IMG/VR virus record: IMGVR_UViG_3300037882_000699
Span: 1 to 27,583 of that record
DNA from: a virus
DNA length: 27,583 bases
Reading direction: 5' to 3' (one strand)
In this document: one piece after another, positions 8,151-11,164 of the stretch
How positions within the stretch are numbered: position 1 is the first letter of the stretch
Layout of the letters: each line of letters begins with the position of its first letter
Program-made: the position numbers and the translations under genes
Notes under the pieces: model-generated
Told to the model about the DNA's origin: nothing
The model's database searches: none
What the model saw: only the letters and a program-made list of their open reading frames with translations

Positions 8151-8672
8151 TCACTTGTCCAATATTGGGTTTACAAAATCTAGTTTACAGTAACCTACGA
8201 TAGAAGAATTTCCTTTGTCCTTATCCCAGAAAACGTAATTAGGCGACATACTCACAACAATGCCTCCATTTTCTAATAAGACAGCAAACCCCACACAATC
8301 TTTAAGCTCCTTCGGAGGAACATCTTCTTCTGTAGGTACCCAAGGTTTGAAGTGCAACTTGAAAGTATCAGTATAGGGTTCAGCATTATCCCACCAAGCA
8401 TCTTTATTACCATAGTGTAAATCTACTTTGCCCTTGTCTATGGAAGTTAAGAAACTTGTGAAAGCCCCTGCTTCTGTTGTGTCCCACAATTTAACCAAGC
8501 TACCAATATCCTTCTCGCTTACTGTGTAGTTGATTAATGGGTGTTTAGGTATCTCTGGTACTTCGGTATTACTTTCATTACAAACACTCTCCAAAGCTTC
8601 TACAAGAGCTTTTAGCTTATCTGTGTTTGAGTATAAGAGGGTTTGTGCTTTAACCATCAGTTCTGTGTTCAT
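8151..8672 (-). CDS. Hypothetical protein, 173 aa
   Basis: ATG with AGAGGA 6 nt upstream. A helical N-terminus (about residues 1-35) leads to a Trp- and Asp-rich region with W-D-T-T-E-A-G-A-F and D-A-W-W-D-N-A-E-P-Y segments, then a beta-rich end. The middle resembles small phage proteins seen beside nucleotide metabolism genes, but no named family can be assigned. It is coupled to its upstream neighbour by an ATGA overlap (8669-8672). Confidence 0.6.
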   Translation of the reverse strand: MNTELMVKAQTLLYSNTDKLKALVEALESVCNESNTEVPEIPKHPLINYTVSEKDIGSLVKLWDTTEAGAFTSFLTSIDKGKVDLHYGNKDAWWDNAEPYTDTFKLHFKPWVPTEEDVPPKELKDCVGFAVLLENGGIVVSMSPNYVFWDKDKGNSSIVGYCKLDFVNPILDK

Positions 8673-8854
8673 AGGGATTCCTCTAAGTCAATTGGTTTAT
8701 TCATTTCATAATTAAACCCTTGCATAAACCCCATGCCAAGGCTAAATCCAAAAATAAAGTGAGGGTTAACTTCAGTATTGAACAAGATATTAGCAATTAA
8801 GGCTCCAAGTGTGATACCAGAGGTAAATAAAACCCAAATACCAATGTATTTCAT
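8669..8854 (-). CDS. Small membrane protein with two hydrophobic segments
   Basis: 61 residues from the ATG at 8854, where GGAG lies 9 nt upstream. The in-frame ATG at 8860 is only 3 nt from the GGAG and is less likely. Hydrophobic segments at about residues 3-26 (I-G-I-W-V-L-F-T-S-G-I-T-L-G-A-L-I-A) and 32-48 (F-I-F-G-F-S-L-G-M-G-F-M) suggest a two-pass inner-membrane protein. The C-terminus is short and acidic. Function unknown; candidates include superinfection exclusion or a membrane anchor. Confidence 0.6.
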   Translation of the reverse strand: MKYIGIWVLFTSGITLGALIANILFNTEVNPHFIFGFSLGMGFMQGFNYEMNKPIDLEESL

Positions 8855-8860
8855 AATCAT

Positions 8861-9298
8861 TTACTCCAAAGTTGTTTGTGTATGTGTATTGTAGCAAGGT
8901 GGTCGTAGTTGTGCAAGAGGTTTATTTCGATTAGTAAACTTAGCATTAATTGGCATTCTATCAGCTATCCTAGCTCTGTTCAAAGCTAGAGCTTCTTCAG
9001 TAACAACATAGTCTCTGTAAAGCCTCTCAGGAACGCTCTCAGGCCACATAAAGGTAACATTGAAGCATCTATATAGGCATTCGTTGTAAAGCTCCATATA
9101 ACGACTGTGTAGCCATTTAAGCCTAGTATAAAAGAACTTCACATGACCAGTGCCAAGAGTGTACTCCTTTGGATATTTACCGTCAAGTATTGCTTTACCT
9201 GAGTTGATAGTGTTAGGGATGCGAACAAGCTCACGGTGCTCTGCGAGTAAATGGGAATTGCAAAGTTCTTCTACAGGGACAACGTTAATGCGCGTGAT
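8861..9298 (-). CDS. denV: T4 endonuclease V (DenV)-like pyrimidine-dimer DNA glycosylase/AP lyase, likely AUC start
   Basis: 145 residues if translation starts at the ATC codon at 9298-9296. From there the protein reads M-T-R-I-N and matches T4 endonuclease V in register: T2 (catalytic N-terminal amine), R3, H16, R22, E23 (catalytic Glu) and R26, then a G-x-G-H-V-x-F-F-Y motif, E-L-x-x-E-C-L-x-R-x-F-N and a R-x-D-Y segment. T4 EndoV is 138 aa. The enzyme cuts the glycosidic bond of cyclobutane pyrimidine dimers through a Schiff base at T2. GGAGG at 9305-9309 is 6 nt before the ATC. The nearest in-frame ATG/TTG (9343, 9382) would add 15 or 28 residues before T2 and block the catalytic amine. 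Confidence 0.85.
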   Translation of the reverse strand: MTRINVVPVEELCNSHLLAEHRELVRIPNTINSGKAILDGKYPKEYTLGTGHVKFFYTRLKWLHSRYMELYNECLYRCFNVTFMWPESVPERLYRDYVVTEEALALNRARIADRMPINAKFTNRNKPLAQLRPPCYNTHTQTTLE

Positions 9299-9415
9299 GA
9301 TACACCTCCAAGATTTATAGACAACAAAAAAGCCAGCCCTCATTACAAGGATTAGCTTAATCGTTTTGTTACTTAAGGTCAAACACTATTTATAATTGTT
9401 TACATATTGGAACAT

Positions 9416-9466: not shown

Positions 9467-11164
9467 CTACTGACAAGCGGTACATTCGTTCTTATCATTA
9501 CTTGCTTGGATACCAGCCATTGAGTAGACGTAGTATAAAGCTAAAATGTTAGGGTCTAAGAATGCTTGCTTATGAACAGAGTTCACATAACTTTCTTTCT
9601 CCCCCGCAGCAAAGAACAAGTTCAGAGATGCCCATTGATCTAGGTAATTGCCACGAGTAGAAGCAAGCCGTAAGATAACGTGTTGGTTAATCTCAAAAGC
9701 AGTTTTAAACACAGCCTTCTCTTCGTCACTCAGCCAACTTACACCTTGTACACTACCCATTGCATCTCTAACTTCTTCCACATGCTTCTGAGTATAAACC
9801 CCTTTTTCTTTCATTAGCTTCAGTAAATAAGGATTTACTCGGTCAATCTCACCACCAGCACTACGTTGAGTGTAAACCATAGCTGTATCTGGATTAATAC
9901 CTTCACTAACACCACCCATAATCAATGCGGTAGACTTAGTGGGGGCTACAGCTAAGCAGTGAGAATTGGCACGACCATAGCCTTTCAACCACTCTGGTTC
10001 ACCATACACAGAAGCAATCCACTCAGAAGCTCTTATTGACTCTTTCTGCATTGTGGAGAACACTTCTGTATTCCACATGTGGGCTTCAAGAGATTCAAAA
10101 GGTATCATCTTAGATTGTAAGTAGCTCCCAAAGCCACAAACACCTAAACCTAATGCACGACCTTTCTTAGTTGCAGCTACAGCTTTCTCCAAGCCTTTAA
10201 TATTCTTTGCACGTTCAATGAACTCTTGGCACACACAGTCTAAGAACACAGTGGCTTCAAATATAGCATCTGTATCTTTAAACTCATCCCAATGAACTAA
10301 GTTCATACTGGCGAGGACACATGTGTACGTGTATTCACTGCTTGAGTGTAAGATAATCTCGGAGCACAATTGACTAGCTTTAATATCTAAGTTTTGATCT
10401 ACGTACCACTTAGGACGTTTAGCGTTAGCTTTATCTTGGAAGAAGTAGTAACCCTTGCCTGAAACGAGCTTAGTCTTCAATGCTTTCGCATAACGTCTAA
10501 GAGCCTCTGGTTCACGATTCTCAAGCTTCTCCACAAACTCATTACTAATACACCAACCAATATTATTCCCGTCTGGCTGCTGTTCTAAGTAGGTACAGAC
10601 CTCATCAAAGTCTCCGTGACCTATTGGTAAATAACCTGCCCAACTGCCGCGTCTTGCTGTACCTTGTGCCACATACTCCATATCTTTCTGGAATCCCTCA
10701 ATCACAGGCAAAACCCCTGTTGAAGTTCCTCCTGTTGAGATTGGGGTGCCCCGACAACGAATATCCCCCAAATACCCTGCTGTACCAAAACCCATCTTTG
10801 TAAGCATCGCTGTCTCACGCTTTGCTTCGTAGATGTCATTGATACTGTCACCAATGTACGAACCAGCACATGACACTGGTAAACCACGAGCAGTCCCTGT
10901 GTTAGCTAAGATGGGAGTGGAGGGCGATAACCACCCCTTCCACATTAGATCAAAGAACTTCTTACCCCAAACTTCAGGGTCTGGTGTGTGAGCTGCCAGT
11001 GTCTTAGCGATACGTGTATATTGTTGTCTAGGTGTATCGGCTTGATACAAGTATTTATTCTTGAACAACTGCCAACCACCTGTACTCCAAAACTCAGGCA
11101 TCTCGCCTTCAGCTTGTAACTTCTTTCTTTCTTCACTCAATTTATCATAAGTACCACTAGACAT
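9467..11164 (-). CDS. nrdA: Class I ribonucleotide reductase large (alpha) subunit
   Basis: 565 residues, ATG with AGGAGAG upstream. It reduces ribonucleotides to deoxyribonucleotides with NrdB. Mapped by motif to E. coli NrdA: C99 (C225), C267 (C439, thiyl radical), E269 (E441), C282 (C462), Y544-Y545 (Y730-Y731 radical relay) and a C-terminal C-x-x-C at 561/564. The residue matching N437 is Gln (Q265-L-C-S-E269). The N-terminal ATP-cone of the 761-aa E. coli enzyme is absent, so overall dATP feedback inhibition is probably lost, as in many phage RNRs. The gene follows glutaredoxin and nrdB in one operon with an 8-nt gap after nrdB. Confidence 0.95.
   Translation of the reverse strand: MSSGTYDKLSEERKKLQAEGEMPEFWSTGGWQLFKNKYLYQADTPRQQYTRIAKTLAAHTPDPEVWGKKFFDLMWKGWLSPSTPILANTGTARGLPVSCAGSYIGDSINDIYEAKRETAMLTKMGFGTAGYLGDIRCRGTPISTGGTSTGVLPVIEGFQKDMEYVAQGTARRGSWAGYLPIGHGDFDEVCTYLEQQPDGNNIGWCISNEFVEKLENREPEALRRYAKALKTKLVSGKGYYFFQDKANAKRPKWYVDQNLDIKASQLCSEIILHSSSEYTYTCVLASMNLVHWDEFKDTDAIFEATVFLDCVCQEFIERAKNIKGLEKAVAATKKGRALGLGVCGFGSYLQSKMIPFESLEAHMWNTEVFSTMQKESIRASEWIASVYGEPEWLKGYGRANSHCLAVAPTKSTALIMGGVSEGINPDTAMVYTQRSAGGEIDRVNPYLLKLMKEKGVYTQKHVEEVRDAMGSVQGVSWLSDEEKAVFKTAFEINQHVILRLASTRGNYLDQWASLNLFFAAGEKESYVNSVHKQAFLDPNILALYYVYSMAGIQASNDKNECTACQ

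Follow-up and report, generated by a model that had tools for sequence, protein, structure and literature searches.

The window analysed here, the whole stretch of 27,583 bases, is a single metagenomic viral contig (IMG/VR record IMGVR_UViG_3300037882_000699) that contains an endolysin gene and a run of DNA-metabolism genes encoding a DNA polymerase, a primase/helicase, thymidylate synthase and ribonucleotide reductase subunits. A denV-like gene is placed after nrdA on the minus strand, and the features around its start are listed in Table 1. The protein read from an ATC codon matches Pyr_excise (PF03013) at 1.7e-13 and 51.2 bits (cut-off 23), PHROG 1183 at 7e-37, and T4 endonuclease V (solved structure 2END) at an E-value of 9.4e-21 in an alignment which begins at residue 1. 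Alignment with 11 phage homologues shows T2, R3, I4, N5, H16, E20 and E23 as invariant columns and R26 as nearly invariant; the window copy runs the full length and retains every catalytic residue. Counting from the ATC, residues T2, H16, R22, E23 and R26 carry the T4 endonuclease V numbers, as a previous reading of this DNA made from the letters and their open reading frames (the sequence-only reading) had claimed, and the alignments with 2END and with the phage homologues both agree. On this family evidence the gene is a homologue of T4 endonuclease V (DenV), with predicted glycosylase/AP-lyase activity on pyrimidine dimers.

Table 1. Features at the start of the denV-like gene and its neighbours (window coordinates)
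Feature	Position	Strand	Remarks
nrdA, ribonucleotide reductase large subunit, upstream gene	9467..11164	-	resembles annotated phage ribonucleotide reductases
Upstream in-frame TTG	9380..9382	-	about 28 residues added before Thr2
Terminator-like hairpin with T run, after nrdA	9323..9365	-	-15.6 kcal/mol, z -3.95
Upstream in-frame ATG	9341..9343	-	about 15 residues added before Thr2
Extended Shine-Dalgarno GGAGGTG	9303..9309	-	GGAGG core 9305-9309; longest match among scored genes
Second, tandem in-frame ATC	9299..9301	-	directly upstream of ATC 9298-9296; absent from the sequence-only reading
Proposed start codon ATC, immediately before Thr2	9296..9298	-	placed by aligning the protein with T4 endonuclease V and 11 phage homologues
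denV-like gene (pyrimidine dimer DNA glycosylase / T4 endonuclease V homologue)	8861..9298	-	145 codons and stop, counted from ATC
Small hydrophobic protein, 63 aa, next gene	8669..8860	-	ATG follows the denV stop without a gap (TAA-ATG)

In the T4 enzyme the alpha-amine of Thr2 forms an imine with DNA (PMC3285167). The window protein belongs to the same sequence family, with the same numbering from Thr2, the catalytic E23 and R22/R26/H16, and an N-terminal Thr after Met removal would be expected in it as well. As DenV proteins have to begin at Thr2, the family serves well as a reporter, its start codon being identifiable from the sequence alone.

The minus strand at the gene start reads TTGGAGGTGTATC-ATC-ACG-CGC-ATT-AAC. 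T-R-I-N directly follows ATC 9298-9296, GGAGG (9309-9305) is located 6 nt before this codon, and no in-frame ATG, GTG or TTG is found between the Shine-Dalgarno and Thr2; on these three points the sequence-only reading was accurate, coordinates and spacing included. The Shine-Dalgarno duplex with the 16S tail at the ATC start reaches -13.2 kcal/mol, the third strongest of the 45 window gene starts scored, and equally good pairing is found in only 0.3% of random 19-nt windows. The GGAGGTG match before the ATC is not due to chance. ATC 9301-9299 is not the preferred start, because the Shine-Dalgarno is too close to it (3 nt). A tandem ATC pair before Thr2 is present both in the window (9296-9301) and in a homologue described below, L175, and in each of the two a short out-of-frame ORF starting with GTG or ATG stops at a TAA overlapping the Ile-Asn codons. 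Frameshifting from the overlapping GTG 9305 (GTG TAT CAT CAC GCG CAT TAA) was rejected, as its product would not begin at Thr2.

The frame is open upstream of Thr2 as far as TTG 9382, with ATG 9343 within it, and translation from ATG 9343 (or TTG 9382) would give an N-terminally extended protein, either inactive or activated by proteolysis. We consider this highly improbable: both codons lack a Shine-Dalgarno, ATG 9343 is located within the terminator-like hairpin, the ATC relatives do not have any canonical upstream start, and the extension would bury the catalytic Thr2 amine (PMC3285167). Furthermore, the 16S-tail duplexes of ATG 9343 (-2.4 kcal/mol) and TTG 9382 (-1.3 kcal/mol) are the two weakest of the 45 scored starts. 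These canonical upstream starts are not usable alternatives. None of 200 shuffled sequences was as stable as the hairpin, which looks like the nrdA terminator; such a structure between nrdA and denV would further lower DenV output.

Other candidate signals around the start were discarded. A T4-type late promoter (TATAAATA) has a counterpart in TATAAATC at 9312-9319, such motifs being no commoner than chance, and transcription starting from it would remove the Shine-Dalgarno. A sigma-70-like match at 9324-9297 overlaps the start codon, and matches of this kind are present at chance numbers. Neither the window nor the loci of genes with ATH (ATA, ATC or ATT) before Thr2 showed a special phage tRNA.

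The codon before Thr2 was surveyed in DenV homologues, leaving out loci without a clean motif. Annotated phages showed 10 ATG and one GTG; viral contigs showed 65 ATG, 10 GTG and one ATC, which belongs to L084; and bacterial genomes showed 72 ATG, two GTG, one TTG and one CTG. The start codon thereby sets the window gene apart from the T4 endonuclease V family, in which the relatives surveyed have nearly all ATG, some GTG and one TTG. A single-sequence search for close relatives of the window denV found none; the nearest relatives of this gene share about 57-60% identity with it and have ATG or GTG. In the alignment of this codon, proposed as a check by the sequence-only reading, ATC recurs in other DenV lineages and is absent from the nearest relatives of the window gene. 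In the chromosomal DenV homologue of Pseudogemmobacter bohemicus (L165:1501), Thr2 is preceded by CTG and an in-frame stop is located five codons upstream, so that CTG is probably the start.

Two pattern scans of IMG/VR for ATH before the TRIN...HL.AE motif found five and seven stretches (12 in all), and matching scans for AAG, ACG or AGG before the same motif found none. An ATG scan with the longer spacing found at least 120 stretches; ATH therefore represents at most about 5% there. Intact, full-length DenV genes outside the window show ATC in four lineages (L084/L224/L225/L223, L201, which is the same as L219, L222 and L177) and ATA in one (L220), all of them without an in-frame canonical start upstream. 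The sequences of L224 and L225, from separate datasets, are the same as L084 over the compared part, ATC included, and L223, also with ATC, encodes a protein 98% identical to that of L084 behind different upstream DNA. ATC is conserved before Thr2 within this one clade (L084/L223), and relatives slightly further away have ATG. The ATC relatives around L084 lack a Shine-Dalgarno, so compensation by the ribosome site is not universal. A TATCTTTA motif, about 15-25 nt upstream of denV, is common to the L084 relatives L181-L200, and we take it to resemble a Bacteroidota -10 element. L220 is a weaker case, as its ATA could reflect an error or recent polymorphism: it differs from L293, which has ATG, in 3 of 399 bases and in none of the 150 upstream.

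Two other ATH genes are damaged, which indicates that decay at times accompanies a weak start. One of them, found in three datasets (L173:4317, L174:3511 and L176, minus strand), shows AAGGAG and ATT as first codon, with a 1-nt deletion that causes a frameshift near codon 21 and the remaining protein intact in another frame. The other, L175 (minus strand), has ATC before Thr2, a GTG 13 codons upstream and, at codon 87, a TAG in frame. Its homology is clear past the TAG up to a TGA; this TAG may be a nonsense mutation or may be read as an amino acid, and the other ORFs of this contig give no clear answer on its meaning.

Comparison of L221 and L223, both with ATC, gave a dS of 0.16 and a dN of 0.01; at least one ATC clade has thus diverged to a real extent while retaining its ATC and a protein under constraint, and is, judging by these rates, under strong purifying selection. 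Values between L219 (ATC) and L200 (ATG) were similar, with a dS of 0.14 and a dN of 0.01. At least 8 changes between ATH and NTG have to be assumed on a quick tree of 229 homologues, which points to repeated origins of ATH. For the window gene, the pattern read from these alignments is one of recurrence and not of conservation. Random substitution is expected to change the second and third bases about equally often. Third- versus second-base changes were 8:0 lineages with the window included (chance 0.004 under equal likelihood) and 5:0 for the intact lineages outside the window (chance 0.03), both counts being made after the fact and on few lineages; the bias of the third base towards C, over A and T, likewise comes from few lineages. 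Neighbouring gene families, used as a start-codon background, showed 103 ATG, and none had an AUH start that lacked an ATG close by; this is a rough control only, with DenV loci partly chosen for ATH.

The observations that speak against initiation at AUC include the origin of the ATC base from one contig, the ATG or GTG of the nearest relatives, the missing Shine-Dalgarno of the ATC genes around L084 and the two damaged genes. The first two would fit a sequencing or assembly error, with ATG as the true codon and one wrong base in the contig, and the pair L220 and L293 shows that near-identical contigs can differ at the start-codon base. We consider such an error highly improbable, since the same ATC was assembled from several separate datasets (L084/L224/L225) and in the diverged sister L223, and since errors should be equally frequent at the second and third bases, against the count of no stretches with AAG, ACG or AGG versus 12 with ATH. 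It is also highly improbable that the start has been lost and the window denV is a decaying pseudogene. The damaged genes, in which ATT is paired with a frameshift (L173/174/176) and ATC with an in-frame TAG (L175), would be precedents for such decay; against it, the window copy is complete in length and catalytic residues behind a strong Shine-Dalgarno, the ATC genes elsewhere are intact and under purifying selection, and in a decaying gene the first two bases of the start codon would not stay unchanged. From the distribution of codons among the homologues, random error or decay would not yield a recurrent ATH pattern which leaves these two bases unchanged.

Authentic but weak, IF3-sensitive initiation at AUC 9298-9296, aided by the strong Shine-Dalgarno and followed by Met removal that exposes the catalytic Thr2, is in our judgement very probable. 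The natural AUC start put forward in the sequence-only reading is supported by the rank of the Shine-Dalgarno, the weak upstream starts, the independent ATC lineages, the purifying selection on one clade and the absence of second-base variants, and the functional constraint it proposed finds support in the conserved Thr2 and the published chemistry (PMC3285167). For the window denV we infer AUC initiation, Met removal and a low yield. The ribosome would be positioned by the extended GGAGGTG, and initiator fMet-tRNA would be used at AUC in spite of the mismatch at the third position; removal of the formyl group and Met, as for AUG, would then leave Thr2 at the N terminus, where its exposed alpha-amine would act as the catalytic nucleophile. 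The yield would fall far short of that from an AUG start, with the shortfall partly offset by the strong Shine-Dalgarno, and would be sensitive to IF3 activity because AUU, AUC and AUA starts are disfavoured by IF3. Low expression, suggested in the sequence-only reading, is by analogy with the known cases a plausible selected purpose of the AUC. A more tentative proposal, which we hold to be rather doubtful, is that the change from AUG to AUH (mostly AUC) is a repeated, convergent and selected throttle on phage denV through IF3, possibly tying its output to the translation state of the host.

Non-AUG starts are already known, and the interesting part is their recurrence within one phage family. 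The infC gene starts at AUU in E. coli and at AUC in Streptomyces (PMC5472188); it resembles the window denV in having an AUH start codon in a bacterial translation system, but infC is autoregulated, its product reading its own start, and DenV has no such loop. Streptomyces sigR, which IF3 represses, has a GTC start preceded by AGGAGGTG (PMC5472188). Both sigR and the window denV have a C-ending non-canonical start behind an extended Shine-Dalgarno; however, sigR encodes a cellular sigma factor with GTC in 32 of 34 species and a demonstrated low output, while denV is a phage repair gene known from its sequence. The AUA and AUU starts of S. aureus have extended Shine-Dalgarnos, and in poor medium their output is about 10% of that of AUG (PMC13009471). 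Of these, ccpN (AUA) and cvfC1 (AUU) are similar to the window gene in their AUH starts with strong extended Shine-Dalgarnos and differ in being cellular genes with ribosome-profiling evidence. An AUU start of E. coli pcnB is attributed to Binns and Masters (2002) in PMC13009471. Our literature search found no paper on non-canonical starts in phage pyrimidine dimer enzymes.

Well-characterised natural AUH starts are very few, gene finders miss them, and AUH-start genes may be listed as truncated or absent in annotated phage genomes. A repeated change of the start codon that spares its first two bases, within one phage gene family, goes beyond a curiosity. If AUC starts work, phage genomes would offer natural cases for measuring the frequency of weak starts, their compensation by the Shine-Dalgarno and selection for low expression. 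In the window itself, the thymidylate synthase start (13908, minus strand) is a TTG preceded by the strongest Shine-Dalgarno found there, GGGGGTGATC, at -17.5 kcal/mol, and TTG is apparently the start of several other window genes too; weak starts may therefore be common in this phage.
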